Positions 12,505 to 55,567 of a stretch of DNA of 64,000 nucleotides are shown here, piece by piece (positions within the stretch are counted from its first letter, which is position 1; each line of letters begins with the position of its first letter). The DNA is from Cucumis sativus. Taxonomy: Eukaryota > Streptophyta > Magnoliopsida > Cucurbitales > Cucurbitaceae. The translations under genes and the position numbers were made by a program. The notes under the pieces were generated by a model that saw only the letters and a list, made by a program, of their open reading frames with translations, had not been told where the DNA came from and did not search any database. The stretch covers positions 4,092,001 through 4,156,000 of the forward strand of contig NC_026660.2 of NCBI RefSeq assembly GCF_000004075.3, written 5' to 3'.

Positions 12505-14416
12505 TTGTCTAGTGCTTCATCAACTTTTGTTCCTTCAAAAAAGAAAAGAAAAAAAGTCAATCCTCCAATAGAAAGTGGAAATTGATTCTAGGTTCTCAAT
12601 TTCGAACTTCCAAAAATAGGAGACAGAATACTGTACCGTATTGCTAGCAAAAGCGAACCATTCTCGGTCCATCGGTACCATAAATTCCCCATCTTAATTT
12701 GTTCTCCGATATGTGTAGATAAGCAGCCTCTGTTTGCTGGACTGAAATTTGTTTGAGTTTGAGCCATAGTTTTAACTTTTTAGGTTGGGTGAAAGCTTTC
12801 ATCACTTTGAGTTGCATTCTTCGGATTTGCTCACGAAGTAAATTTAGATTCTGTTTTATGTTTGGTTTATAAATTCACTACTGTGTTGTATTAATTTGAT
12901 CAAAACCCTATCAACATTATGCTCTTGTTTAGATTCTGTTTAAAAAGGCTGCTTAATATTTAATTGTAAATTAAGTGTGAGTTAAGTTTATAATGCCTTT
13001 GGTAATTTGACAGTGTGTGTTTGGTAAAGTTTAGAAGATACCTTATTTAAAATAAACTTAAATATAAAGTGAAGATTAAAAAAAATTTAAGTAATTACAA
13101 AAGATCATGATTTTAAAATTACACAAATGATATAATTTTTAATAAAATTTGTGAACAAGGTTTTTGAATACCATATGAGATGAAAGCTAAAATACATGGA
13201 ACTTGAGAAAATGTTATTGGTATGTTAATATATGTAAAATAAAATAAATATTTGAAACATTTTTAATCACGATCTTGTCAATATTATTGAAAGCTATATG
13301 TTAACAGATCCATATCATTAAAAAAAACCATCAAAACAATTTGCTAAGAATCTAATCCAAATCTCCATTTTATTATTTTTTAAAGAAAAATAACTAAAAT
13401 TTCAACTACTCACGAGGTTTCGAAATTATCTTTGTAAATTGACTGACATAGTAGATACAATCTCTAATATTTACTTCTTTGATATTACTCTCAAATACAA
13501 ATTAAGACTTAGAACTTTGTGATATTCGATATTCATAAAGTTGTAGTTACAAGCCTATTTGAGACTCAATTCTTTAATCTTTCAGAAGATATAATCTCAA
13601 GATTAATAAAAACTTACACGTCTGGAAAGTTTTCAGAAGTTTGAATATTCATTTATTTGGAGCTTCAATTATTTATTCAACAAAATATCTCCAAACCAAA
13701 TGTAAATAACAGAGAATTTCCATGAGCTTTAGGTGGACTTAAACCAATTTGCTTGATGGACTTAGGGTTAGGCTCGTTTGCTTGTTGGATTTGTTTGGGT
13801 TGATTATCTTTTTTGGCTCAATTTTTCATATACATAGTCTCACTTAGGTCGGGTATAATAGAACTTAATTATCCAAACTCAATTAATTTATAATTATCAC
13901 AATGTTTAGTATAAGTACGTGACAGAATTTAATTGGTCGAAATTGCTTGGTCAACATTAGTATTTGTTCTTATTTAGAAAGATGCAACCATGGTAAAAAG
14001 AAAAAAGACAAGTACATGAAGTTAGTTTTTAAAAACCAAAAACGAAAAGGGAAATTATTGTCCAAGAAGGTCTTAACGAGAAAAACGAGATGCAATGTAA
14101 ATTTAATATCACAACTCCAATAAAAATCAAATAACTTGATGAGATGTTAAATAACAGAGCAGCCAAATGCACATGCCCAAACCCAATATAGTTTTGTTTG
14201 TTTGTTTGTTTTTCCCATTAAGGTGCGTAAATCCAAAGAAACGAAAAGGAAAAGCGAGGAACAACCATACCAAGTGGGCATGTCCCTTCTTGTCCCTCCT
14301 CACTTCCATCGTCTTAAATAATCTGTGCTCTTTTTGTCCTTCTACAATTTCCACTCACCACTCACCACTCACCACTCACCACTCACCACTCACCACCCAC
14401 CACTCTCTCAGTATCA
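12505..14416. other. Intergenic AT-rich region and promoter of DUF1475-like copy 1
   Basis: No gene is visible. About 12505-14100 is AT-rich noncoding sequence. From about 14221 onward the sequence resembles the stretch upstream of the second DUF1475-like gene (25353-25500), so the duplicated unit includes part of the promoter and leader. Confidence 0.5.
14351..14405 (+). repeat. 7-nt minisatellite in the leader of DUF1475-like copy 1
   Basis: About seven head-to-tail copies of CCACTCA, ending roughly 12 nt before the ATG at 14417. The matching position in the second gene copy has only one partial unit (fttccactctct-like context near 25493), so the expansion belongs to copy 1. Confidence 0.85.
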
Positions 14417-17400
14417 ATGGCGAGCTCAGCGGTAATTGGATGGAGGATTCTCTTCCTTCTATTGGGCTGCACATTGGTTACAGCTCTAGTTTACACAGTC
14501 GCCACTGATGGCTCTCCTTTCCGCCAACAAATTCTCTCACCGTACTCTGTCTTCTTCACTTTATTTCTTATCATTTCCACCAATAAGATTTTTAGGACTT
14601 ACATGTTTAAACAAATTTGTAGGTTAAGTTTGTGTTAATAGTTAAATAATTTTTTTGGTTGTGACTATTTATTGTTTTGATATGTTTTAAGGAGATATTT
14701 TGATTTAAAAACTTTGTAAGAATTTTTAATTCAGAATCTATTTTTGGTATTTTTAAAATTTTGGGAAGTTTGAGATATTTTTGACACAAAAGACAAGTGT
14801 AGGGGTATTCTATATATAATTTAACATATATACACACATTAATAATAAGTTTGGGTTGGGTTCATCTTTTTTTCGAATCATCGGGTTCTTTGAATGCCAC
14901 TAGATTGGAGTAATATAGTGGTAAAATGTTCAAATTTAGCCTCTCAAAATGGGTAGATTTTATCTAGCACTTTCAATATTTTTTGAACCTATTCTCTTGG
15001 TAAACTTTTGAAAAAACAAGTTCATGTGTATTAGTCTTTCATCTAGAAATTTAAAAATGTGGAAAATGTATTCACATTGTATCTTTTCTTGAATGAAAAT
15101 TATTGTTATTATTGTTTTAGTAGTTTTTATGAAAATTAACTTCATGCTAACTGTCAACAGAAATTATGATTTATGATTTATTCTTCTTTTTTTTTTGTGA
15201 TTTTGCTATCAAAAAATAAAAAATATGTTCTATTCAAATTATGGATATTCTATATTTTCTTAATTAGTATTTCCTTTCCAGTCTCTTTCATTTGTTTGTT
15301 CTGTTGGTGTTTGTTCAATCTGTCATTAAGTTAATTATTCAATATATTCTGATTAATTATTCAACACTAACAATGAGTCAGTTAATATTTTTAGATAGCA
15401 GAAAGCCTGAGAGTACATGGACTAAAATGTCACGATCTTAAAATATAGCAACAGCAATATTTTTAACTTTTTTATCTAAAAAAATCCAATATGTTTTGTG
15501 TTTGGTCATTGAATTTGTGAACAACACAAATTGGGTTTTCATCATGGTACCAACTCGCTCCATCTGACCCTACAACATTTGGGTGTCAAGAAAACATGTA
15601 GAAAATTAATTTCTAGGTATCTCTTAGTTAGTTATTGAGACCATGTCTCCCTTTTTACCACTAGGTCAACCCATGATGGTTGTCGATATGAAATAGTTAA
15701 GTGGTATACATATGTATATACATACACGTTTTTTGACCTGAGATTCAAATTGTCACTTGATCTCTGTTGAGGTTAAGAAAAAGACCAACTTAAAATATTC
15801 AGAAAGTATAAAACTAAAACTGAATAAGTATGTACTAAAGTGAAGATTCTAAGGAGGATCTGATTTACATTGAAACTTAATTTTATTTTTCTTAATAAAT
15901 CTTGCAATAGTAATATGACAAAAGGAAGATCTGATTCATGTAGTTCTCAATTTTCATAAAGAAGATGGAAAATAATTGATTGTTTGTTATGTAATTATTC
16001 TACTTTGCTTTTAGCCTTGTATTACTCAGGATGTTTCTTTGTTTGTTGAAATGTTAAGTTGCGTCCTGGTTGTCTTATTATAATCTGGATAGGATGAAGG
16101 TGTTGAGGGATCATGAACTTAGTTGAGAGGTTCAAGTGCACTTCCTGATCTCTAGGTTTAAGCTATCGTTATTTTACAATAGTAAACCTTGAGCATTAGT
16201 TTCATTTCATTATATTAGTAAAGAGACTCGTTTTCTTTTTGAGAAAAAAATTTATTACTATAAAATTCTTGTGTTCAAATTGTGGAGGACCCGTGTGAGT
16301 AATTATTCACTGGGGAAATTTGTGTTATTTGGTGTACTTTCCTTTAATGTCATTACAATTGTGGTGTGTTGTTGGACTTATTATCCTTATTCTTATTTTT
16401 TTCTTCTTTTATGACTTGTTCATTTAGGTTTGTAATTATATGTTTCAGGTTAATGGTGGTAACCGTAATCGACCTCTATATCAGCATCGTAGCTCTTGCA
16501 GTATGTAAAAGTTTCATTTTCTTATAATAATTTCCATTTAATGAAATTTTGACTTTGCATACATTTAGTTGTATCTCTAGCTTAACCTCTTTATGCTGTG
16601 AATGGAGGCTGTATATTGCTAGACCATTTGGGTACACTTGATTTTATGTGAAGTTTACTGTTAGGAATGCCAACAAAATTCCACCTAGGTTATGGAAAGA
16701 AGTGATATCATGGATATATGAGTGATAAGAATTATTTCCATTGGTACGAGACGTTTTGGATAGTATCAAAAGCAAAGTCATGAGGGTTAGTTCAAAGTGG
16801 ACAATATCATACCATTGTAAAAATTTGTAGAAGTCCATTGTCCTTATCATTTACAAGTTCACGCGCTACATATTGACGATCACTGCTATTTTCATACATT
16901 TATCTTTCATCCTTCCCACAACAATTATGAATCAAAGCTACCCCAACTCCACCATGTTCTTCCATCTCACTTATTGCTTCTCTTTCCACATTTCAGTATG
17001 GAATTGTAATTTGATCGGCCAATTAGATGGGAAACCGATCATACAAGTCTTAATTTGATTTAATCCGAAATATAAATGATTTATGCTTTACAAAGTTTTT
17101 CACTCTGATTTAAGAACATATGCATATTCTAGGCTTTTGCTTATTGTTTAAGATCTTGATGTAAATTTTATAGAAAACTCACGAAGATTGATGCATCTTA
17201 TTGTTGCATGCTAGAAGGATAAGCATCTAGCTATCTACTATAGAATCATCTACATAATAGATGATTTCTTTTATAATTTCTCAGACATGGATTTCCTACA
17301 AGGAAGCAAACTGGATTACTTCAACAATTTGGATTGTTTTTCTTGTGTGTTTCAGCGGGTAATTACTTCTCATCCTTGTCTAGCTCGCCTTCCATTTTAA

Positions 17401-23390: not shown

Positions 23391-25523
23391 GGTCACTACA
23401 ATTTGATGGTTTCCTAAAAATCGTCGAAGTGTATATCTAATAATTTGATTGTTTATGAGTACCATATTCTCAAATAATGTCTTCGTCCATATGGGAAGGG
23501 ACAAAGAAGTTTGAGTGTTTTAGTTCGTTTTGGTTCATGTCGTTTTTATCATAAAGAAAACTTTAGCATATATTATGTAATTTTAATGTCTAAAAGAAAC
23601 GTAATATTATTCCGTACATAAAATATGTTAAATTTGGTTTATTTAATTTGTTTACTAATTTGATTAACGATGTGTTTGGATTACATTTTCAAGTGTTAAT
23701 TTATAAAATAAGTTATTTTAAATAAAATTAAAGTGTTTAGAAGTCACTCAAATTAAATTTTTAAGTGTATTTTTAACCATTCGTAGAAAAAATAGTTTAA
23801 ACAAAAATAAGTTTCTTGAAAAATGATCTAAACGGACTCTAAATTTGCTTTTGTTTTAAAATTTCGTATACTTTATCCTCTCGAATCTCATTTCATCTCT
23901 ATCGTTACGTTTTGATACTTCTTTATATATATATATATATTTTGCCTCACTGATATTAAAATGACAATTTTGAAATATACTTATGGTAGTCTATATAAAT
24001 TATTTACTATACTATGCTACTATATTCTTTTTTTGATTTCAACTTCATCGTATTATACAATTAAATTGTTACATTATCAATTCTTCCTACCAATTTCTTA
24101 ATAATAATTAGAGAAAATTTCTCATTTATATATCCTTGACGTCTTAAAATTTTAATAAAAGAAATGTTTTAGTTCAAAAACGTTAAAATACAAATTTAAA
24201 GAAAATTACATAAGATGACAAAAAAAATTAAAAAAACATTTCATAACACTTTTTTGTTGCATATTGCAAATTTGACAAATATAACGGTAATCAGGTAGTA
24301 ATCAGACAGTAATTTTTAAATTTGCTATTTTTATAATTTTAAAAATATAAGTGACATAGACTCTATTATCATATCTTTCTTTTGCTATTTTTGTAAACTC
24401 TCCTAAATTTAATTTGTAATCATTTGATTATAACTAAAATAGTGGCTAAATAAAAAATATATCACATAATAATATTATTAATAATAAAGCAACTTATTCT
24501 ATTTAATTAGTATAACAGTAGTAAATGATTAATTTTACATTCAACTAAATCGATTATTTAGTTTTGTTTGATAACGTGTCACTAATTTTTATTACATCTA
24601 GATGTTTACATTACAAAGTAAAGTGATTAGTTTTATTTGATATTTATAATTAACGTACATAAATGTTGATGGCATCTATGTAATCCAAAAATGTTTTTAA
24701 AGTATTATGACATTTTAATGAATCATATATATATATATAAATGGAATCATGTAAGAGAACTTTTGTCTCGTATCTTTTATATATATACCTTTCCATTTTA
24801 TTCTTCGTAGATAGGTCACAACTCTTAAAAGAGAGGTGTTTGTTGAGTTTAACATGTACAAGATGTGACTTTTCGAAATAGAAATGATTTATAAATGTGT
24901 GTAATGATTACTTATTAAATTATTATATTATTTTACTCGTGACAATACGGTTACGAACTAAATTGATGCATGATTGAAAAATAAAAATATATGAAAGAAA
25001 AAGTAAGATTAAAGGAAATAACAAAATATTAAAACTATTTATAAAATATTACAAACTTTTTTATCTCATTTAATTATTTTTTACTCTATTTTATAAGTTT
25101 TTTTTTATCCATAAAATTGTTACATGGGAGTATTTATTTTTTTATTATGAAACTATTTATAAAATATAATAAAATATTCAAATCATTTTATAAATAATTT
25201 TAATATTATGCTATTTTCGTCGAGTAGTTGAATTATAATTTAAGATAAGAAATAACTTGGCACATTCATTATCTATTTTAATTTGAGTTCATTTAGGCAT
25301 TATTTAAAAGTTCCAATTAAAATAACCCACGTGTTGCTTACGAGTTTTGTTAAAGGTGCATTTATATCCAAAGAAATGAAGAGGAAAAAGAAGGAACAAC
25401 CGAACAAAGACCACGTGGACACGTATCTTCTTCTCGTTTTCACCAACTTCCATCCTCTTCGTCTTCAACCTGCGTTTCTTCTCCTTCTACAATTTCCACT
25501 CTCTCCCTATCACTGCCTTTCCA
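23391..25523. other. Intergenic spacer between the tandem DUF1475-like genes
   Basis: About 2.1 kb of very AT-rich sequence with TA-rich microsatellites near 23925-23940 and 24725-24740. No coding signal was seen. The last 170 nt are homologous to the region upstream of copy 1. Confidence 0.5.
25328..25417 (+). promoter_or_regulatory. Two G-boxes upstream of DUF1475-like copy 2
   Basis: CACGTG occurs at 25328-25333 and again at 25412-25417, about 195 and 110 nt before the ATG. At the matching place copy 1 reads CAAGTG, so the second box is specific to copy 2. G-boxes are bound by plant bZIP and bHLH factors; actual use is inferred. Confidence 0.45.
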
Positions 25524-28500
25524 ATGGCGACCTCAGCCGTGATTGGGTGGAGGATTCTGTTCCTTCTATTGGCCTGCACAATGGTTTCAACTCTAGCTTA
25601 CACACTCGTCACTGATGGCTCTCCTTTCCGCAAAGAACTTCTCTCTCGGTGCTCTCTCTTCTCCACTTAAAAGCTTTTTTCACTTTATTTCTTATCATTC
25701 CCAATCCCTCTTCGTATTTCTGCTTGCCTGTCTCCCCTCCCTCTGTATTCATGCACTATCTAGTTGCTTAAGTTGTTCTGTTCATGTACTAGTGATCAGT
25801 CGTGTATATTTCAGTCTCACATCGAATTGAAGTAATATAATGGTTGAATAAGAAACTATCCCGATTATAAAGTGTGTTAAAGTGCTGTAAATCCATAGAT
25901 CTAATGTTATTGGGAATGTTTGGCAGGTGTCCTGAATTATAAATTGATTAATATCTTTAGACGGCACTAAGCGTTAAAGTTTTCAGAAAGTATAAAACTA
26001 AAATTGATTATGCACTAAAAAGAAGATTTGGGCCTTCCCTCTGTTACTTGTATTGAAGCTTAATTTTATTTTCTGTACTAAATCTTGTAGCAATAGTATG
26101 CTAGAAGGAGGGTCAAATTACTCTCGAAAGATCAAAACCGCAATTGTTCATGGGATAATTATGTTGGAATTCAATCACAGTCGACTACCACTGAGAGAAT
26201 CATTTGCATAAGCAGTATTAGCTGTTACTATAAAGTGCTCATCCGTGCAGTATTTAATTTCCCTTATCAATCACAGTAATCCTGTGTCTTTTTCTGGCTG
26301 AATCATATTTGGGGTGCTGATGATTTACATGAATTATTATACTATTTAGTATTTATGTAGATGGGTTTTTTTTTCTTCTTGTTTTCTCTTATTGGACCAT
26401 ATTATGTGTCTCAGGCTTGTTTCAAATTGCCAAGTTTTGTACTCACAGAATATAAAGTCAAGCTCTGATTTTATAGTTCACATAAAAAAACTATTAAGTG
26501 TTTGTCGTATCACTGGCTAGCTAATTGATACAACATTCTCATGCTCTCTTTGTGGAGCGTATGTAGGCAAGTTAATCACAAGGAAAACTTGTTTAATTTA
26601 GTGTATTTTCCTTGAATGTCGTTACTTGCGACGTTGAGCAATTAACTTTTCTCTAATTAATATTCCTACAAATCTGGACCTTCTCATTCAAGTTTGTACT
26701 TTCATTTTTCAGGTTAATGGTGGCAGTATTAGTTGATTTCTATTTAAATGTCACAGTTATTGCGGTATGGAAATATTTAAACTTTCATTTTGTTTTCTGT
26801 TTTACGAAAAATTGGACTTGCTGAATGCTGTACATCTTATTGTTTCTATAGCTTAACCTCTTAAGTCGTGAGAATGGGCCTGCTAGACCATTTGGATAAG
26901 GGCAAAAGCCCTGTTTATTTCAATTCATTGTATTTTGATGTGAAGTTTCAACTTTTGATAAGAAACCTTCCATAAATTTAAGCCGCAGAACCAATTTAGT
27001 TTCAATCCAAGGGAAGTGATTGAAATGGACACCTTGAGGATCAAAGATCTAAGATAAGAAAAATAGTTCCTTACCTAAAGTAAGATTAAAATACTCCAGA
27101 GTGATGGGTCAAACCAACTTGAATATTGTAAGAATGTAATTTATGGAAACAGAAAGTTGGAGAAAAAAGGGTGTCATTCTCACGGCAGAAGAAAGAAGTT
27201 GTATCCAAATCAAGTCTAATGAATGTACAAAATGAAAAATCCCGACATTCGAAGAACCCGTATGAAACTCTATAAGTGTTAGGCTTTTGGGTGTTAGGCT
27301 TTTGAGCTTATATGTAACTCTTGATGAAACTCTAAGCTAAACACTATGTAAACTAAATATCAAGGACCACATGTTAACCATATAAAAGTTAGAACTCCTT
27401 ATTCTATCATGGCCTAGAGGGGTAGATACAAAGAACTCAACCATTAATAACTTGTTGAGCCAATCTCCATTTTCATGAAAAGAATACAATTATACAACAC
27501 TAGGACTTCCTATGTGATTGCTCAACGTAGTGCTATTTTCACCAAGCATGCCTATGTTCTGGTGGGAACAAGTGCACTCATCCTGGTGAGATCACGCCTA
27601 AAATGATTCTCAGTTTTGTGGTGCATGCAAGACATCATTACATCGCGCATGCTCTTCTTGATCCAATCTTGTTTGGTAAGACGAAATTTGACAAAGTAAA
27701 GAGTGATCGACCGAAACAACGGCCAACAAAGACTGCAATTACATAAATAACAGCTCCTCCTCTTCCCATCTCTTCCTTGAGGCTTTAAGTCAGAACTGTA
27801 TGGCAGATGGAAAGAAAGACAACCTCACCTTATCCTAGATGGTATCAGTGAGAGCCCACTTTAGTATCCCCCGTTGCCTTTCGTTTTTTGATAGGATCTT
27901 CAATGAGTGGGAAAAGGCAACCTTACTAATGCTTGTTCAGGGTGCATGACTCGTATCAAGTTTTCTTGTGGACATATATTGTAATGAACTTGATCTCTGT
28001 TGTTTTTCTTACCGCTCTTCCTTAGTAGCCATTATCTTTCATTTGTCCTTTTTTCTAATCATTCTTCCTGCGTCAATTGGTAACCCTAAGTCCCCTCTTC
28101 CTTTTCTAACCAGTACGCAAACATAACTTAATTCGGCAATAATCTTGATCATCAAGGATGGAAAATGAACATGCAAGTCTTAATTAAAAATAATCTCAGA
28201 GATCAATTCATGATGCTTTATAGAGTTCTTCACTGCAATTTAAGACCCTATTCTAGGTTTTGGCTTACTTTTTTTTTTTTTTTTTTTTTTTAGAATTCGA
28301 TTTAGATTTTGACAGGGAAAACTCAGATGGAATTGTTAGATCAATTATGATTTCTATCCAATCCACTCTGCTTGTCATTATTGCAAGCTCAAAGGATTAG
28401 CATCTAGCCATCTACTTCATAATCATTTACAGACAAAAGAAACATTGTTACAATGTGTTCAAGCATTCGTAGTAACTTCTGTCTCTCAGACTTATTTTTA

Positions 28501-36694: not shown

Positions 36695-39946
<3,252 letters not shown>

Positions 39947-40641: not shown

Positions 40642-41809
40642 TCATTTGAAATCAGGGTGGATATCATCTTCAACAATTTCTTCATTTATCATCATCTTCA
40701 AGACATCCATTCCCTCTTCTCTCGCCATATTTTCTTCGTTTCTGCCTCCACAATTTTCTTCTTCAGTTATGTATTCACTCCACTTTGATGAAGCTCCTCT
40801 TACCTTACCTAATATGCAACTTTTCGTCCTTAAATTTTCATCATCTTTACTCCACTTTGATGCTTCAATTTCTGATGGCAACTCCCAGTTTTGAATCTCA
40901 TCCTCAACTTTATGGCCGTTTTTGCCCATCTTCTTGTCCTGGAAAGGCGCACTCAAGTATTTGGCCGTCGAGAGAGTTTGCTCATCATCGCCTTTACTCA
41001 ATTTTGATGCGTGAATTGCTGACGGCGACTCCCAGTTTCGGATCTCATCTGCAATTTTATTGACGTTTTTTATCTTTTTTTTTTCTTGAAGTGCAAGAAG
41101 TTATATGAACATCAATTTTTACCTTGGGAGCTCAAATTATTGGCTATATGTTTTCTCTTAGAGAAAAGTGGTCTGTAAAGTCCATCGCCTTCTCCTTCTT
41201 CCGACCAGCTTGAACAGCTCCTTGAACCAGATTTCCAGGTTTTAATGTCTGGAAGCTCCGTCACGATCTTTAAATCACTTTCTGATACAGGAGGAAAATC
41301 ATCATCTAACAAAGATTTTTCTTCCAAGTTGATTAAAACTAATTGCAAATATGTGTTTAAAAAATTAGTGACCTAATTCTACTTCGTTTTCTCTTCCACT
41401 ATGGCTCCGATCTTCCACCGGATCGAGATAGTCACTCCAATCGCTACGGCTCTTTCTCCTCCCACTGCAAACAAGCTTATCGTCATCAACAATCCCTCCA
41501 TCAATTAGCTCGTCCACGTTCGCCTGTTCATTCGCATATTTCCGTGACATATTGAAGCTTTGTACGAATTTACGGACGTCTTTAGCCATTGGAGCTCGAG
41601 CAAACACCTTCTGCACCGATTGCTTCTGGTTACACACTGCACAGATCCACTTGTTCCCGCTCTTCCGCTGCTGCTTCACCTAAATCGAAACCATCGCCAT
41701 TACAGAAGGTAGGGAGAGACGTTGAAGAACTAAGAAACAGTGAGAGAGAGTTGGGTACCTGCATGGTGGAACATTGAAAGCACTGGACGGCGATGAAGAT
41801 CGTCGCCAT
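40642..41809 (-). CDS. MRNIP-like zinc-ribbon protein
   Basis: Exons on the minus strand: 41809-41759, 41679-41373, 41281-41123, 41048-40642, giving 307 residues. The N-terminus has paired CxxC motifs (Cys10/13 and Cys30/33, QCFQCSTMQ and WICAVCNQKQS) followed by FVQSFNMSRKYA. This matches the N-terminal domain of MRN-complex-interacting protein, which in animals acts in DNA double-strand break signalling. The same role in plants is only inferred. The rest is acidic and low in complexity, with W-S-x-Y/D motifs (SDWSDYLD, SKWSEYIT). The last exon holds a 49-residue tandem repeat (DEIRNWE at about 173, DEIQNWE at about 222), and part of the first repeat unit runs back into the preceding intron. 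Exon 1-2 boundaries are firm; the boundaries of exons 3 and 4 rest on frame and splice consensus alone. Confidence 0.75.
40841..41080 (-). repeat. 147-nt tandem duplication spanning an intron-exon border
   Basis: Two units offset by exactly 147 nt: for example, the shared CAACTCCCAGTTT-type anchor occurs at about 40881 and about 41028 on the plus strand. The right-hand unit continues past 41048 into intron 3 of the MRNIP-like gene, where its sequence still aligns with coding sequence of the left-hand unit. Confidence 0.7.
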
Positions 41810-42859: not shown

Positions 42860-45021
42860 ATGGCACTTCACTCTCACATTGAGAGAGTGCTCTGGACCCA
42901 TGACCAAATTTCGGCTCGAGTCTCTGACCTTGCCTCCCAAATCTCCATCGCCTTCGACGGAGCCTCTTCCCCCCCAGTCTTTGTCGGCGTCGCCACCGGA
43001 GCCTTCATTTTCCTCGCCGACTTGGTCCGCCGCATCAACATTCCAATCGCTGTTGACTTCGTTCGTGTCGAATCTTACGGTTTCGGTACTCAGTCTAATG
43101 GTGCTCCTACAATCTCATCGGACTTGAAGGTCGATGTTAAGAACAAGCATGTAATTCTGGTATTTCCCTATTACTCGCTCCGTCTATGTTAAAGCCATTG
43201 GATTATTGTGCTTGTGTTTTTTTTTTTTTTTCTTGTTCCTGTACCCTTTTCCGATGAAAAATTTAAAGAATTTTGTTTTTGGCTCTTAACGTGCTGTTCG
43301 GTTTTGTGCCTAATGGCTCCAGTTTACGTCGTCGCCTTGGACTCTCTCTTTTTAGGATTTTCTTTATTTCATGCCTTTATACTGAATCACTGAAGTATGT
43401 CTGTGGTAGAGGTAGATTCTGTTGTAATGTGCGTGTTCTTTTTTGGGAAATTTGGCATGTCAGATCCTTACTTTTAGGGTGGGAACATAAGGAAGAAATA
43501 ATTTAAAGACTGGGGAGAATCAATATCAGATAGTTTATGGAATTGGATTTTGAATTTGTTCAAATTTTGGCATATATTCGAAAAGAGCACTTTCATATCC
43601 AGGAAATAAATCCGACAGTGTTAATCTGACAAAAAATTACGCGAGACTAAGTTCATGGTCCTGATAAATATTTATTTGTTAACAACTATGTGAGGCTGGC
43701 TGACATGCATACCCTTTTCTCTATGATTAGAATATTATTAATGAATTTCAGTTGATAATAGTACTTGTTCCTCATTGTTTTTCCTTCAGTTGAAGATAAC
43801 TTTGGGAGTATTAAAAGATAAACTGTCGTCCTCAACTAAAGATTAATGAGATCAAGATATTTATTTGAAGAAGAGAAACTACGAACTTGTTCCCTGTTTT
43901 CCATTTTTGAGTTCTGAATTTTAGGTTTTTATTTTCTTTTTAATTCTTTTCGATCGGAGATCTATTTGTCTTTTTGTTGACTGTGGGTGTAATTCTAGCC
44001 TACCCTTTTGTTCAACTTTTTAGCTGTTAACATATCCCAAAAAACAAAATAAAAAGTAAGAAGGTAGATTATAGATTCTCTTCGTCCGTGGGAGGATTGA
44101 TCATTTGGAATATTGTGACATTGGTGATGTGATGCATCATCATTCAATCTCTTCATAAATGACTCATTGTATTTTTCTATGTTGTACTTTTTACTATCTG
44201 TCTCTTAAATCTTAATCATGTCAGATCTGTGAAATGTTGGTTGAGTCTATGGATCATAATGTGAAATGGAAATGGCAATGGCATGAGTTAATCTGCATAT
44301 CACTGCTAAGTAAAATCTCCTTGAAGAGCAGTTCTCTGTTCCATGGTTTTGATGGGTTTAGTTTTCTTCTTTTGTCTCGTCATCAGCATTTCATAGATTG
44401 ATTTTCGTTTGTATTTGACATGGGCTCTTAGTGGACATTTCTGCTGTAACTATTGTAAAACATGCTCAGCTTCTACTTAACTTTTATAATAAATCTCCTG
44501 TTAGGTCGAGGATATTGTAGATACTGGGAATACTTTATCATGTCTCATTGCTCACATGGAGGTAAAAGGAGCATCATCTGTATCAGTATGCACTTTTCTT
44601 GATAAACCAACAAGACGACAAGTTAATTTTCCGTTAGTAGGCGAAGGAAAGTTCTACTCCGGATTCCAAGTAAGCTAAAATCGAATCTCCCTCTTAAAAC
44701 AAGAACACAACACACACTGAAATGTCTTAGCCATCTATGGATTATTAAACTAGGAACATTATCTGACATTTCTTTGTATTGAAAAATTTCATAAAGATTT
44801 TCCAAGTAGTAGATAAATGAAGGTACCCCACAATGACCAATCACACATTCCTCTTCGGCTGGCATTAGTTGATTCATAGCTAAAAAGGTGTTTTTGTTTT
44901 CTCTATGATTTGTTTTGAGCAGTGTCCAGATTATTTTGTGGTCGGGTATGGAATGGACTTTGCGGAGCTGTACAGAAATTTACCATATGTTGGCATTTTG
45001 AAACCTGAATGTTACAAGTGA
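42860..45021 (+). CDS. HGPT: Hypoxanthine-guanine phosphoribosyltransferase
   Basis: Purine salvage enzyme that joins hypoxanthine or guanine to PRPP, giving IMP or GMP and pyrophosphate. Exons 42860-43159, 44505-44669 and 44923-45021 join in phase 0 at both introns and give 187 residues, the expected length. The PRPP-binding loop [11 protein letters not shown] starts at residue 101 and supplies the catalytic Asp. An early [15 protein letters not shown] block and a late [12 protein letters not shown] block, which frames the purine pocket and ends before [10 protein letters not shown], match the family. The start is the first ATG ([12 protein letters not shown] context); the frame is open further upstream but lacks another ATG. 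No transit peptide is evident, so a cytosolic location is likely. The first intron is long (1.3 kb). Confidence 0.93.
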
Positions 45022-46217: not shown

Positions 46218-46271
46218 GGAGGGAGAGAGAGTGGTAACAAGAGAGGAGGGAGAGAGAGTGGTAACAAGAGA
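46218..46271 (+). repeat. Perfect 27-nt tandem duplication
   Basis: Two identical adjacent units, each containing AGAGAGAGTGGTAACAAGAG, in a GA-rich tract. Open frames here are low-complexity artefacts. Confidence 0.85.
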
Positions 46272-47531: not shown

Positions 47532-50500
47532 ATGGGAAGCAGAAGAAAAGCTATTCTCGAGTTCTCTCACTGCGCAAACATCCTTCTATCTCCAACGAAA
47601 CGCTCTATTTTCCCCAACTCCACACTCTCCACAAACGCATTTTTAGCTTCTCAATTTTGTTCTTCTACCTTTTCCAGATCCTCCACCGATGGCACTCCCG
47701 TGGAAAATGAGCAGCCGCGGCAATCGAACAGAGATTCGACGCTTCTTGAAAAGTTCAGGCTCAGAAAACTCAAAGGCTTGTCGAAAATCTCGCAAGATTC
47801 ACCGAGTTCTAACGGAGGTGAGAAGGCGATGACAGGTTTCAGGGACTTAGGGCTTTGCAATGAATTGGGCGAGGCTGTAGAAAAAATGGGAGTTTTGGCT
47901 CCTTCCGAGTTGGATTGTGCAGGGATTCCAGCTGTTTTGGAAGGAAAGAATGTGGTGTTTGGATATCTTGATGAACCCGAAAGGGCTTTGGCTTACTTGC
48001 TGCCTCTCATACAGGTTCTTTTTTTTTGTTCATTTGAATACATTCAATCCTTTGGCACTTTCTTTAGCAGAACCAATGATGGCTTTGAGTTCATAGTATC
48101 AATCAGAAGTGTACTTGGTGTAGATATCCGAATATTTCTGGACTAGAATTACCTTTAAGTTGATTTTTGTAGGAGTTTTGATCGTGACTGTTAAACGGTA
48201 GAAATGAGAACACGTCGAAACCCTAGAACAGGGAGAAAAAAATCAGTTTCTTTTATTATTTTCACACACCATGAAAATTACAAGCCCTAACAAAAGAAAA
48301 AGAAAAAACGAAATAAACTTAAGGTAAAGTAAAATACTAAAATACTCTCGGGACTATGAACTATCAACAAAGTTTTGAAATGATTTGTGGACTTAGGCTC
48401 ATAAGCAAAGAACAATGTTTGTCCCACATTGGAGAATTTTGATGCCAAGAGGGTATAAATACCAAGACATGCTATGTGCGAGATTAAAATCTGTTGGTGG
48501 TGATCGGATAACCTTGTCGATACATGTACCACTCTACTACCAACCACTCTTGCGCGAGAATGAAATAATTTTATTATAACCGATGATTTTCTTCCTCTTT
48601 ATTATCATCTTCTTCATTCTAGATATGGGCATTCAAAACCAGATCTCTCTTTGTTCTATTATGTTATGAGCTTGTTCTTCATCTCAATTCTATTCCTTAT
48701 TCCGAGAGTGCACCTCGGAATAGGGGAGTTGTGTTAACCTTAGCGAGCAACCAACATCTCAATTGGTACCACAGTCATGCTTACTGATGTTGAACAGAAA
48801 TACCAATGTCCTTTCTGATATGTCCAAACTTGAACCACTTGATGGAGCAAACTACCGCCACTAGTCTCAGAAATTGTTGATTTTTTTCGAGCAGCCGGAG
48901 GTTGATTATGTGCTTACCATAGAGTCATCGTCTGATACTGAAAATGCAGCAACTGTTTCTAAACCAGAATCATCTAAGGGACCTCCTACTGCTTTTGATC
49001 AATTGAAGCCGACCCCTACAAATCGATCCTGATAAATATGAGAAGGACAATAGGATAGTTCGCGACCACTTGCTAAATCACATGGCAGATGAGATGTTCG
49101 ATTTGTTTGTGACCCAAAAATCCGCCTAGGTAATCTGGAGTATGTTGGAATCATGGTATAGTGGAGATATGCCAACCGTAAGAAATATTTTGTTGGAAAA
49201 TGGCTTCAATTTCAGATGACAGATGACAAACTTGTGGTGGAACAAATTCATGAGTATGAAAATTTTATGTCAAATGTATTATTCGGAGGAATGACGGTTG
49301 CTAAGTTTTGGATTATCTGATAATATGTGGGGGGAAGCAATGCTTTCTGCATGTTTTATTCTCAACAAGGTATCTCAAAGAAATCTAGATAAAACTTCTT
49401 ATGAACTCTAGAAAGGCTATGCACCTAATCTCACTTACTTGAGGGTTTAGGGATGCTTGGCTAAGGTACCATATCCTGTATTCAAGAAACCTATGGTAGG
49501 ATCTAAAACCTTTGATTTTGTGTTTATTGGCTATGCTCAAAACAGTGCTGTATATAGATTCATGTGCTGGAATGAAATATTCATATATGATCATAGGGAT
49601 GCAGAACTTTCTAAACACATTTTTCCTTTGAAAAGGGAAATTAAATATCTGTCTGTTTCTATTCCTTTTTCGTCTGATAGCATGCATGAAATTGGAAATA
49701 ACATAGCTTGTAGAATTTTTTTTGAAATTGTTAATACTTCTGGTGTAATGCTTGAAATAGAACCTGGAAGGAGTAAAAGACAGAGATTAAGTAGATACAC
49801 ACCTAATAAGGATCACTGGATTGTTCTTCATTGTTTGTTGAGATATCTTAAAGGCACGATAAACTACTGTTTGTACTATAACAAATTTTCCGTTGTATTA
49901 GATGGTTAATGTGATGCAAACTGGGTTACAGATAATGACGAGATCTACTCTACTGGTGGTTGTATGTTTTTACTCGGAGGTGGAGCAATATCATGAAAGT
50001 CTGCAAAACAAACTTGCATAGCTAAATCCACTATAGAACATGAATTTATTGCTCTAGAATTGGTAGGACAAGAGGCTGAGTGGATTAAAAGCCTACTAGA
50101 AGATACATTTGTGGGGGACATCTGTACCGGTCTCTATACACTATGATTCACAGGTTGCCATATGTATTGCCAAGAATAGTGTTTATAATGGCAAAAGAAG
50201 ACATATACGTCTTAGACATGGAGCTGTGAAACAATTGTTAAAGGAAAGAACTATTTCCTTAGAATATGTTAGGTCTAAGAACTTGGCTGATCCTTTAACC
50301 AAAGGACTAACTAGAAAAATAGTTCTAGACTCCTATGTGAACATGGGGCTGAAACCTTACAGCGATTCATAGCACTTGATTTGGGTGGTCTATTGCAATA
50401 GACTTGATGGTCCATAACCCCTTTTCTGATTGGTCTATTGCGATAGACTTAATGGTTCATGGCCCATTGTGTGGGTAGTCCTTAGATGGACTTGATGTAT

Positions 50501-53077
50501 GATAATAAAACCTTTTGAATGTTCCATAATCTTTAATGGATGGTGATGAATTCTTCGTAGCTCATTTTGAGTGGTTTGTTTGAACAAACTTGATGAAGTA
50601 TACAACGTGATAGTGAATGTGTGGTCTTCTTTTATGAAAAAGTTTGAAAATCTCTTTCTAGAGCTTTCACGATGACCCGAGGTTTATGTGCATGGCCATA
50701 ATAGGCACAAATCTATATTGCAAAATCAAGAAAAGACTTAGGATTAAAACGTGTTGTGGGGGTCTCATCCAGTGTTATTGAAAGTGCAAGAGGTAACTCA
50801 CTCTCTCTAACAAGGTTGTTGCCTTGCTTCACTACGCATCAATTCAAATTAGTAGAAATTGTTGCTGATGTCCTATCTTAGCTCATAACATAATTTTCAA
50901 AACTTGTTTTCATCTGTCTATTTGTTATCTTTGCCGTAACAGCCATTTGTGGGGGATTGTTGGAAATGACTTGTGGGCTTGAACAATGTTTTGTCCCGCA
51001 TTGGAGAATTTTGAAATGGCAAGAGGGTATACAATACCAAGGCATGCAAGGTGTGAGACTAAAATGTGTTGGTGGTGATAACACTTTCACCACATGCACA
51101 CCGCTGTCACCCTCCGTCCGGTCGAGTAACCACGCTTGCGCGAAAAGGAAATAATTTGATGGTATACTTTGTAATTATTATTTCTACCCATTGGAAAACC
51201 CTAGTCAGCGGTTTTTCTTTTCTTCCTCTTTATCTATCTTCTTCTTCATTCCAGATTGGCATTCAAAACCAGATCTCTCTTTGTTGGGCTCTAATTAGAC
51301 ACAAAATTTGTAGTTTGAGGACCTTTTACATACTTGTGAAATTTTTTTCTTTTTTAGTACAAATGATTGTGGGGACGAAGGATCAAGTCTTCCACCTCTA
51401 GAATGGAAGCTCAAGTTTAGTACTGCTAAGCTAACCTCACTTTTGAAAGTAGGACTAAAGCTTGTGCAGTTGAATTATGTGTGATTGAACATTAATTTGA
51501 CTAATGAGACTCCATGTATGGAATATTAAAATGAAACATGGTAGAAAATTAGAAATTACATTGGGAAGTTTGAACTTTTTGTTCTTTTAGCCATGGGTGG
51601 GGAATCGTAATTCTTAACTATATAATGCTTTAAGCACTTGACTTATTCTCAGATTGGTAGGAAGTTTGAAGTTAACCTAATGCCGTGTTAAATTTACATT
51701 AAACCCTTTTGCTTTTAGGTTAATAAGCTAGAATAAACATCTTTTAGTATGCTCGTTATTTTCATTCCCTGTTCTTGAATTGTAAAATTTTTATCGTGGC
51801 TTTGCAGTCTCCTCCCACACCTCTTAATTGATCTACTCTTGGAGTAATTTGAATTTTGATTTTCCATCTAAATTTGAAGAATGTACAATACTGAAAGTCT
51901 AAAATGCTGTCTTCTCTGTCAATTTATTTTTTCGCTTTTGTGTGTCTATCAGAATCTAAAAAGGGATGAAAAAAGGTATGGAACAAGGTCCAAGCATCCT
52001 CGAGCGTTTGTTATGTGCCCAACTGCGCAGCTATCTGAAGAGGTATTATCACTTTCTCAGACCTTCATGAATAAGATGTTAAGATCAACTACAATTTAGC
52101 TGACATAGGATACCCTGCAGTTGTTTTGTATGGCCAAATACTTCAGCAATTACAGGCAGCTCAAAACTCCAAGGGATAATGGTTGTGGTGAATTAGAGCT
52201 TCAGAAAAGTGCATCCGATGTCTCAATCGGTTTGTTAATTGGCACCCCTGATGAAATCTCCGAACTCATTGAGGATGGTAGTGTGGTTCTTGACGAAATC
52301 AATTACTTGGTGTGTGGTGAAATATTCATACGGCATCCTCTTTAAATATATTTTTATTTACCTTTTTTCTTTGACGGTAATTGATAATTTGGTGTGATAT
52401 AATACAATTTTTAATTGTTTTTATTATTATTTTTTTAAAAAAATCTGTTCCTTGCTCTGGTCTGGCTGAGATGGAATATCTTTTAGCTTTCCTTCCAATT
52501 ATAGCCTCATCAACTCAAGAACTGTTGGATGGATTGTCCCTTGTTATTTTTAAATCTTTACTATGTTTATAAGACAAGAAATTATTTGTGTATCTGAGTT
52601 CTTAATCTTACGAAACCGTCAATATTGGCATTTTATATAATGTTTTTATAATTTTCCTTGTTAAAACAGGTATTTGATGAGTTGGATTCAATGTTCGATC
52701 TTGGTTTTGGCCCCAACATTAAAAAGATTTTAACTTCAGTAAGGAACTGCAATAAAAAGTGTCAATCCATTGTGGTTACTTCGACATTGATAAAGGTTAT
52801 TTGGTCTACTCTCTCTTATTTGACATAGAACTTTTGTGCGTTTAGGTTCTTAACTTTTTCTTGAGTTAACAAATTGTGTTGTAAATTGTAGATGATGCAT
52901 GAACAACGTTCATCCCTTGTCAAGTCTCTTAGGTGTGGTGATGCGGGAGAGATTGCTGCTATGGTTCTAGAAATTGAGGAAGAAGAGGCATTCCATCTTA
53001 TGGAATCTCCAGATGCTCTGAAATCTAAACTTGCTGATGTGGTCGAGTCACTTCGTCCATCTACACAGGAAACTTAA
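47532..53077 (+). CDS. DEAD-box-derived protein (RH39-like first lobe, motifs degenerate) fused to an MLLE domain
   Basis: Exons 47532-48014, 51953-52042, 52121-52309, 52670-52795 and 52892-53077 join in phase 0 throughout and give 357 residues. Residues 1-70 are Ser/Arg-rich and targeting-like. Residues about 105-296 follow the first RecA-like lobe of plant RH39-type DEAD-box helicases (FRDLGLCNELGEAV, GIPAVLEGKNVVFG, FDELDSMFDLGFGP). The catalytic motifs are altered: the Walker A site reads YLDEPERA (residues 145-152, Lys replaced by Arg151), motif Ia PTAQL (184), Ib TPDE (233), II DELD (257-260) and III TST (291-293). The second helicase lobe is absent. The last exon (297-357) instead encodes an MLLE-type domain (EIAAMVLE 316-323, HLMESPDALKSKLADVVESL), starting at the same point and phase as the PABP last exon. 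ATPase activity is unlikely; a role in binding PAM2 peptides or RNA is inferred. Intron 1 holds a Copia fossil. Confidence 0.82.
48370..51284 (+). mobile_element. Ty1/Copia LTR retrotransposon fossil in intron 1 of the DEAD-MLLE gene
   Basis: The left LTR runs from about 48370 to 48761, followed by an initiator-Met-type primer-binding site. The right LTR starts near 50957 after a purine-rich tract and is recognisable to about 51284. The interior keeps scraps of gag, of the integrase C-terminal part and of the reverse transcriptase/RNase H end, in Copia order. The element is clearly broken, with many breaks and much of pol missing, and the two LTRs have diverged visibly, so the insertion is old. 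It lies in the same orientation as the host gene. Confidence 0.8.
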
Positions 53078-53377: not shown

Positions 53378-53794
53378 TCACTTCCAGGTTAGTAAAGGAC
53401 GCGGAGTTTTGGCAGGGGTTACAGCATTTCCATTGGGGTCGTATAATATGACTCCTGAGAAGTCCGGTAGCTGGCATTTCCCACCCATGAGAATGTTCTT
53501 GTGCCACATAGAAGCTTGTTGCTCTCTACTGAAGAACATCTCATCATTGCCATTCTCCGGCTCGGTGGTATTCACTCGTTGCGTAGTCACAACTGTTGCT
53601 TCTTGGTTCAACTCTATGACAGGATCCTCAAACTCATATCCATAATCCAAGCAAGCATTCCAACGGCGACGCCATTTTCGGGCATGGGAAGCACACATGA
53701 ACAATGCAAAAGCACAGAGGAGAAGGCTCACACCAGCCATGCCAACCTGGGCTGTGCCTTGTGAAGAATGTATGATTTGCAGTTGCCTTGCCAT
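53378..53794 (-). CDS. Small plant protein with one N-terminal membrane helix, function unknown
   Basis: A single open frame of 138 residues on the minus strand. After a short N-terminus (MARQLQIIHSSQGTAQ), residues about 17-36 form a hydrophobic helix (VGMAGVSLLLCAFALFMC), followed at once by a basic patch (HARKWRRRW). An acidic, Asn/Glu-rich middle follows, then a well-structured-looking block WHKNILMGGKCQLPDFSG and GVILYDPNGNAVTPAKTP near the C-terminus. I do not recognise a named family, but the tail has the look of a conserved plant motif and the frame is long for this AT-rich DNA. The gene converges with the DEAD-MLLE gene; the stop codons are 300 nt apart, so the 3' untranslated regions may overlap. 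Confidence 0.68.
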   Translation of the reverse strand: MARQLQIIHSSQGTAQVGMAGVSLLLCAFALFMCASHARKWRRRWNACLDYGYEFEDPVIELNQEATVVTTQRVNTTEPENGNDEMFFSREQQASMWHKNILMGGKCQLPDFSGVILYDPNGNAVTPAKTPRPLLTWK

Positions 53795-55567
53795 CTTGGG
53801 GTAATTTCTAAGCTTCTTTTTTCTGAAACAATTAGAAAGTTTGTTTTTGTCTGAAGACTTGTTATGAAGGGATCACTAATTTATACAAGTTTTGAAGTGG
53901 AGCTGTTGGTTTTTGAGGTTTTGTTGACCTGATTTGTGGTTTTGGTGATCATTTTCCACTCACAAGATTGTGATTTAAGTTTGCAATCTTTGAGAATGAG
54001 AACTAACTTTGGATTATTTTATAAACTCAACTTTTACAAATTTATTAATAGTTGACTGTTATTAAATATTGTTTTGATTGTATATATATTTGATTTTTAT
54101 CATTGTTTCCATGTGTTCATAAATTTTCTTTTGCAATTTCAGTATCATATTTAAAAAAATTCTAAAGCAATTTTTTACATTATCCATTACAATTTAAATA
54201 TTGGTCGAACCTTTTAGGTATCCAACATAATTTGCTACTATAGTTTGTTGTTTTTTCCTATTTAAAATAATGTTTTAATAATAATTTCAAGATCTTTGGA
54301 AAAAAATATTGTAATCTTAAAAGGATTTGATTTTTTTTAGTCTAATAATTGTTAGAGATCGAGAATTAAACCTTCCACTTCTAGAGTATGGATTAGGTTC
54401 ATTTGATTTGTTTATTGTTATTTTCTTTAGGATAGTTTCCATCTCTATCTAGAAGTACATTTGAATTTATAAACTTAAAACTTTTCCCATCATCGGGTTT
54501 CAAGATCTCTTCTTCTTGTTTAAACACTACTTTTATCTTTATTCAAATCTTCTCTTCATCCATAAAGGCTATGGTTTTTCGTTGAAGACAATCATTGGAG
54601 AGATGCCCAATTTGTCCACATCTAAAACACTTGTTTAAATTGGATCATTGATAGGAATTCTCCACCGGCTTCTTAGAGGTAGTTTATGACTTTTTCTCAT
54701 TTTAATCAAGGCTCTTCTTCTTCTCTTGATCTCTCAAAGATTGAGGATGAGAAGTCTTCTTTGAATTAGCCTCCATCAATTCTGCATAGGTAATGACTTT
54801 CGATAAGGTTAGAAATAATGGTTTGAGTTTGACCTTATCCTTGATGGAAAATCGTAGACCACCAACAAAACGGACAATCAAATGTTATTCATTGTCCACT
54901 AGATTTGTACGAGCTTCCAATTAGTGGAATTCTTCAATATAATTAGTTCTCGGAGAGAAAATGGAGATTGCTTTCGCCTCCTATTCTTGGTTGTCGTCCA
55001 TTTGCTCTATCGGTCCGCGGTTAGTCATTTAGTCCCAAAATCTTTTGGGCACTCCAATACCAATTTATTATATTTAAAATCACCTAAAAGTACTCTTATG
55101 CTCTATTTAAAACCTTACGATTTTGCTAAATTTAAATTCATAACTATTTCAAATGAATTTGGTTGTTTGTTATCTATAAGGGAGAATAATTTTAAAATCT
55201 AAATTGATTTGAGATTCTACTTTTTACTAAATAAAAACTCTTGAAACCAAAATTTTAAATAAAAGTTTATATTAGTAAATTCTTAATGCCTTGTTATATT
55301 TAAATTACCATTAAAATACATCCATTTTAAATTCTTCTTATTCCAAACAAAATGAATAATTTAGAATCATTTTTGGAATTTCAAATAATAAGATTTAAAA
55401 TTACATTTTCAACTAGAATCCAAACCAAACCAAACCAAGGGATGCCATTATGCGTAAATATTTGGCTGTGTTGCGTCTTATTACGTGTAAAACCCCTCAT
55501 AACGCTGAACTGAGGTTTCCTTTCTTCCTTTTCTCACATCTTCATTCTATTTGCTCAATTCCTCAAA
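53795..55567. other. Intergenic region with a Gypsy-type gag relic
   Basis: AT-rich. Apart from the gag relic at 54500-54915 no coding signal was seen. The last 100 nt are the upstream region of the gene at 55568. Confidence 0.5.
54500..54915 (-). mobile_element. Ty3/Gypsy-type gag fossil fragment
   Basis: On the minus strand the fragment encodes a CCHC zinc knuckle (CFRCGQIGHLSNDC) preceded by a gag-like segment. No LTRs or pol remain nearby. It is a broken, isolated relic. Confidence 0.6.

Follow-up and report, generated by a model that had tools for sequence, protein, structure and literature searches.

A probable old chimeric gene of cucumber in which a degenerate DEAD-box helicase lobe ends in an MLLE-like tail

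How could the first half of a DEAD-box helicase come to end in a domain typical of poly(A)-binding proteins (PABP), and what might the resulting protein do? The question is raised by a gene in a 64,000-nucleotide stretch of the Cucumis sativus genome (contig NC_026660.2 of assembly GCF_000004075.3, positions 4,092,001-4,156,000, forward strand), which we call the window. A sequence-only reading had proposed that this gene fuses the first lobe of an RH39-type helicase to a C-terminal MLLE domain and could act as a scaffold recruiting PAM2-containing factors. Our analysis favours on balance an old chimeric plant gene that arose by exon capture, and its product is best described as a predicted pseudo-helicase with a non-canonical MLLE-like tail.

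The gene has five exons on the plus strand (positions are those of the window). Exon 1 (47532..48014) encodes a transit-peptide-like N-terminus and the start of RecA lobe 1, with the Q-motif and motif I regions both degenerate, and is followed by an intron of 3938 nucleotides (48015..51952) that carries a decayed Ty1/copia element. Exon 2 (51953..52042) covers the motif Ia region, in which PTAQLSEE (completed by the first residues of exon 3) replaces PTRELxxQ, and exon 3 (52121..52309) the GG and Ib regions, with GC and TPDE replacing GG and TPGR. Exon 4 (52670..52795) contains motif II, here DELD, and motif III, here TST, and lobe 1 ends with it. Exon 5 (52892..53077) encodes a degenerate MLLE; its homologue is the last PABP exon, with identical boundary and phase. 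The frame had been described as five open exons joined in phase 0 at canonical splice sites, and this held: each exon is a multiple of three in length, all four introns are GT-AG, and the 1071 coding bases, 183 of them (61 residues) from exon 5, give 357 residues and a stop. The first codon of exon 5 is an ATG of its own, and retention of intron 4, if it occurred, would lead to a stop after 10 further residues (a 306-residue product). Codon statistics were compared with those of 1000 noncoding segments (overlapping) sampled from the window, and none of these scored as high as exon 1 or exon 5. The N-terminal 52 residues include six K/R, a single D/E and 17 S/T, and look like an organelle transit peptide as far as composition tells.

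The assignment of exon 5 to the MLLE family was confirmed at the level of sequence. Alone it matched the Pfam profile (PF00658, cut-off 27, hmmscan) with 31.2 bits at E 2.2e-7, which rules out a background-level score, and the whole protein reached 27.0 bits. Against PDB the best match was wheat PABP (2dyd, E 7.1e-10), followed by human PABPC1 entries from 1e-6, and of 17 distinct sequences listed at E up to 10, PABP accounted for 14. A Pfam search of the 357 residues found no RRM; the neighbouring PABP gene encodes four. The model of exon 5 (61 residues, built from two alignment rows; pLDDT 77.1, pTM 0.52) has four helices, as do the MLLE of UBR5 and the MLLE2 of Rrm4 (PMC9249222; this and the other papers cited are represented here by parts of their text).

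The source of the domain is explained by a complete PABP gene upstream (36821..39946, plus strand), absent from the sequence-only reading, with seven exons, 652 residues, four RRMs (E 8.6e-86) and an intact MLLE (E 5e-29). Its last exon (39722..39946) begins in phase 0 at the ATG of MLGE, and exon 5 starts at the homologous ATG with the same phase and acceptor position. Both exons align over 57 codons without gaps; 25 of the 57 residues are identical, the differences at codon positions 1, 2 and 3 number 24, 15 and 34 of 57, and synonymous divergence is saturated (pS 0.77, against pN 0.33). When neutral evolution was simulated to the nucleotide divergence seen here (d 0.6), a span that starts at the separation from PABP and may include time before the capture, at least 25 identical residues were seen in 1 of 400 runs and an open frame in 22 of 400. 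Since the PABP last exon has the same start codon and phase, exon 5 can be understood as a captured PABP last exon, and by these shared sequence features it is an old duplicate of such an exon. Compared with the plant PABP MLLE (PF00658; wheat 2dyd), it is alike in the sequence match at 7.1e-10 and in the last-exon boundary and phase of the PABP in the window; it differs in having 43% identity to the last exon of that PABP, no RRMs attached and a fold that Foldseek did not recover (see below).

The two exons lie 13 kb apart on the same strand, and 7.6 kb separate the end of the PABP gene from the start of the chimera. Searches of the window with both proteins (tblastn) found no other MLLE or PABP copy besides the PABP gene and exon 5, the leftovers being matches among the RRMs of PABP itself and chance-level matches (E 0.47 or worse). 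Arabidopsis has eight PABP genes (PMC4252990). As MLLE exons are rare in plant genomes, we judge a PABP last exon on the same strand at 13 kb unlikely to be there by chance. Class I (PAB5-like) plant PABPs have six introns, two having been lost from eight progenitor introns (PMC4252990), and the PABP in the window, also with six, fits this class by intron number rather than by individual intron positions. By its place, this class I-like gene would be the likeliest donor. That the gene is a chimera and the product of an old exon capture is a conclusion we hold with good confidence.

The other half belongs, as had been claimed, to the first RecA-like lobe of a DEAD-box protein: residues 153-296 matched PF00270 (hmmscan) with 67.7 bits at E 1.4e-18, covering profile positions 29-162 of 167. 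The RH39 affiliation depends on what we take to be the Arabidopsis RH39 sequence (37% identity over 199 columns, E 4e-47). With the same presumed sequence, the window beyond lobe 1 gave just two chance-level matches (E 1.6 and 9.1). For wider comparison we used 84 DEAD-box relatives (open frames read from loci, 82 with a length of 400 residues or more), a set free of plant DEAD-box sequences, in which the five best are about 31% identical to lobe 1. In a search of the window with an E limit of 0.01, the 84 relatives matched only the 500-base bins of exons 1, 2, 3 and 4, so that the absence of a second helicase lobe stands. The relatives share 82 columns conserved at 90% or more, and the chimera retains 32. 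By our own sorting these include 11 of the 33 motif columns and 21 of the 49 others, which means that the positions kept by active members are no better preserved than the rest. None of the eight conserved positions of motif I (AxTGxGKT) is retained, motif II keeps three of four, and the Q motif, Ia, GG, Ib, II (DELD) and III (TST) are all altered. What the chimera has in common with RH39-like DEAD-box helicases is a lobe 1 matching PF00270, and what sets it apart is the missing motif I, DELD for DEAD, changes in motifs Q, Ia, GG, Ib and III and the missing lobe 2. The alignments show a lobe 1 without the ATP-binding P-loop, with altered RNA-contact motifs and without a lobe 2, which at the level of residues makes it a pseudo-helicase. 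RH39 itself acts in chloroplast 23S rRNA maturation (PMC5442247).

Would the tail still recruit PAM2 proteins? We compared the PAM2-site positions known from human PABPC1 (PMC7356810; PMC2854688), leaving out of the counts Q560, which precedes exon 5 and corresponds to K296 in exon 4, and H617, which falls outside the 54 aligned columns (by extension it is S in exon 5). In the phenylalanine pocket exon 5 differs from the human protein at five of eight positions (G563H, L566R, F567S, K580E, T582A) and the PABP of the window at two; in the second pocket both differ at two of five (T576G and L597M in exon 5); in the leucine/turn site the differences are three of seven in exon 5 (L585V, A610V, V613S) and none in the window PABP. 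The KITGMLLE-type signature reads EIAAMVLE, G583 being replaced as well, and the contacts retained are E564, L569, G579, M584, L586, E587, P600, L603, K606 and L614. Read from the aligned residues, this shows that most of those holding the PAM2 phenylalanine have been lost. A human PABPC1 triple mutant, F567A/K580A/L585A, no longer binds PAM2 proteins (PMC11347130), and since the same three positions are S, E and V in exon 5, PAM2 recruitment is unlikely; the tail should not bind PAM2 proteins. In addition, the transit-like N-terminus would separate the tail from cytosolic PAM2 partners. The proposed role as a scaffold for PAM2-containing factors is therefore the part of the sequence-only reading that found no support. 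Loss of both ligand sites, that of the helicase lobe and that of the tail, seems to us very probable.

If both sites are gone, is the gene simply decaying? The copia relic in intron 1 (48418..51285, plus strand) offers a clock. It consists of two long terminal repeat (LTR) copies (about 48418-48655 and 50990-51285) with internal coding remnants between them, among which SH3_retrovirus scored 21.5 bits (E 2.3e-4), under its cut-off of 27; the left copy is followed by a stretch that we presume to resemble a primer-binding site. Over 228 aligned bases the two LTRs show 35 differences (about 85% identical, Kimura two-parameter distance 0.172) and seven gaps, six of them frameshifting. Had the coding sequence drifted neutrally since the insertion, it should have collected about 4.2 stops and 14 frameshifts, and none is observed (joint probability of about 1e-8, rising to 1.4e-4 when just two of the LTR frameshifts are trusted). 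An intact frame around a decayed intronic element argues against neutral drift, in keeping with the earlier remark that the gene does not look like random decay. The clock has its caveats: mutation may be faster in transposon DNA than in genes, long gaps interrupt the LTR alignment, the 3' end of the left copy is missing from the right one, and a gene that died after the insertion would escape the test.

Several results weigh against an old, functional chimera. The clock rests mostly on exons 1-4, exon 5 contributing 183 of the 1071 bases, and loss of both ligand sites is also expected from relaxed selection. Codon statistics are weak for exons 2 and 3 (P 0.058 and 0.042) and give no support to exon 4 (0.47). 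The chimera, including the join of exons 4 and 5 at 52795/52892, is known here from genomic sequence alone. A Foldseek search with the model of exon 5 found no MLLE structure and a single match (6y4r, E 9.3); as a control, the model of the last PABP exon of the window (74 residues, from the same two rows; pLDDT 77.9, pTM 0.60) recovered MLLE structures with probability 1.00 and a best E of 6.4e-3. The miss may mean either that exon 5 lacks a normal MLLE fold or that a two-row model is poor. As to the donor, exon 5 resembles the local PABP (24 of 54 identical) no more closely than that of wheat (23 of 54), and a blastn comparison of intron 4, exon 5 and the 3' untranslated region with the 3' end of the PABP gene gave only chance matches (best E 0.32). 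The lack of shared DNA indicates a duplication too old to be detected at the DNA level and, together with the equal distance to wheat, leaves the case for a local donor circumstantial.

Much of this would also be expected of a recently dead or dying gene, i.e., a truncated RH39-like paralogue lying next to a fragment of a PABP exon, still in frame only because the decay set in recently. Little is left of the ATP and RNA motifs or of the PAM2 pocket, codon statistics do not mark exon 4 as coding, Foldseek did not identify the model of exon 5 as an MLLE and the copia element inside intron 1 is decayed. However, 1071 bases without a frameshift or stop stand against seven indels and 15% differences in the intronic LTR pair, start codon and splice sites are intact and exons 1 and 5 score as coding, so we consider recent decay unlikely, while giving it real weight. 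Less probable still is a pair of remnants never spliced together, a 306-residue helicase fragment ending in intron 4 and an unrelated, leftover PABP exon. The stop 10 residues into intron 4, the ATG of exon 5 and a join seen only in genomic DNA all suit it, and part of the divergence time of exon 5 may have passed inside a PABP copy. Nevertheless, the acceptor, the phase and the start of the PABP exon coincide and the frame runs on, and a gap-free frame of 57 codons at saturated synonymous divergence would be hard to explain if untranslated.

An active scaffold, in which the helicase lobe would provide the link to RNA and the MLLE tail would bring in PAM2-containing factors, is compatible with the significant MLLE match and with the PAM2 contacts that are retained. 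We regard it as very improbable: F567S, K580E and L585V hit the positions of the PABPC1 triple mutant (PMC11347130), G563H and T582A add to the damage in the phenylalanine pocket, the RNA-contact motifs of the lobe are altered and the N-terminus is transit-like. It is a fair possibility, somewhat short of even, that the gene is widely conserved among plants and already annotated but unstudied, which would agree with the explanation that we prefer; the saturated synonymous divergence points to an old split from the PABP exon, so that other plants should carry the gene. Entries named 'DEAD-box helicase 39-like', as we presume the name to be, would be an example of such an annotation. On the other side, the open-access literature among the matches listed, as far as its available text goes, does not mention it.

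The old chimera that we prefer would have come about when a duplicated last exon of PABP became attached to exons 1-4 of an RH39-like DEAD-box gene, at the phase-0 intron directly after motif III. Its product might be imported into plastids or mitochondria by means of its N-terminus and act there without ATP and without PAM2, as a protein-interaction module that could, for example, pair with the parental helicase complex or compete against it. The helical tail might cap the exposed face of lobe 1 or bind a partner other than PAM2, as proposed for MLLE1 and MLLE2 of Rrm4. Import together with such an ATP-free role is a tentative suggestion, its location and partner being deduced.

Is anything similar known? 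The sequence-only reading knew of no described DEAD-box/MLLE fusion, and we found none in the open-access literature among the matches listed (titles and starts of abstracts) nor in the available parts of PMC4574140, PMC12898128 and PMC12787238; the word RH39 is missing from the main text, as available, of the physic nut and soybean DEAD-box family surveys. Apart from PABPC1, MLLE domains are described only in UBR5 and the fungal Rrm4, according to the available text of PMC9249222. Rrm4-type proteins resemble our case in having non-PABP domains, MLLE1 and MLLE2, in which the pocket glycine is replaced and which bind neither PAM2 nor PAM2L (PMC9249222), but they combine RRMs with three MLLE, one of them PAM2L-binding, and have no helicase lobe. 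For MLLE2 the authors find an accessory role and for MLLE1 no clear function, and they believe all three to be important (PMC9249222). The UBR5/HYD ubiquitin ligases likewise have an MLLE outside PABP, without the first helix, but in the context of a HECT ligase and binding the PAM2 of PAIP at 3.4 uM (PMC9249222). Termite and wasp DEAD-box/Ataxin-2 chimeras also join a DEAD-box domain to a component of the PABP system, although there it is the PAM2 side (Ataxin-2) and not the MLLE (PMC12898128). One could speculate further, at low confidence, that the cucumber gene represents a conserved plant family of pseudo-helicase/MLLE proteins, born by exon capture from the neighbouring PABP gene and forming a further MLLE class after PABP, UBR5 and Rrm4. 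In it the MLLE would have moved from PAM2 to another partner, possibly in an organelle, and would link machinery derived from PABP with machinery derived from a plastid helicase. If true, MLLE would have a fourth setting here, just 13 kb from the exon that was probably its donor. It would clearly exemplify the capture of an exon by intron phase and allow a test of what a peptide-binding domain does after losing its ligand site.

A predicted phosphoribosyltransferase (HGPRT-like) gene lies between PABP and the chimera (42860..45021, plus strand, ends read by eye; PF00156 at 2.1e-9 and 2.4e-7 on two exons). We take Arabidopsis PAB5 to lie near HGPT (AT1G71750), in which case this stretch may be syntenic. 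The Arabidopsis PAB5 gene is AT1G71770 (PMC4252990). A small gene on the minus strand (53378-53872), whose protein has 138 residues counted from its ATG, ends about 300 bases downstream of the chimera and is a possible synteny anchor; a Pfam search with an E limit of 0.01 assigned it to no family. A pattern search of viral contigs for relatives of the PABP MLLE exon gave 14 matches and no relatives (exon 5 was not a query), and scanning the window for Rfam families (gathering threshold) and for tRNAs gave no hits. Intron 2 of the PABP gene (38370-38477) is exitron-like, with 108 nucleotides, a multiple of three, and no stop, and its retention would insert 36 in-frame residues within the region of the fourth RRM. 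Between the PABP and HGPRT-like genes there is an open frame of 152 residues (40642-41100, minus strand) in which a unit of about 25 residues is repeated (DEIRNWESPS.../DEIQNWELPS...), and between the HGPRT-like gene and the chimera a perfect 27-nucleotide tandem duplication, GGAGGGAGAGAGAGTGGTAACAAGAGA, at 46218-46271. Finally, two open frames 11 kb apart (14155-14508 and 25256-25615) end in similar C-terminal peptides, NWMEDSLPSIGLHIGYSSSLHSRH and DWVEDSVPSIGLHNGFNSSLHTRH, which may reflect a dispersed repeat or the duplication of a gene end.

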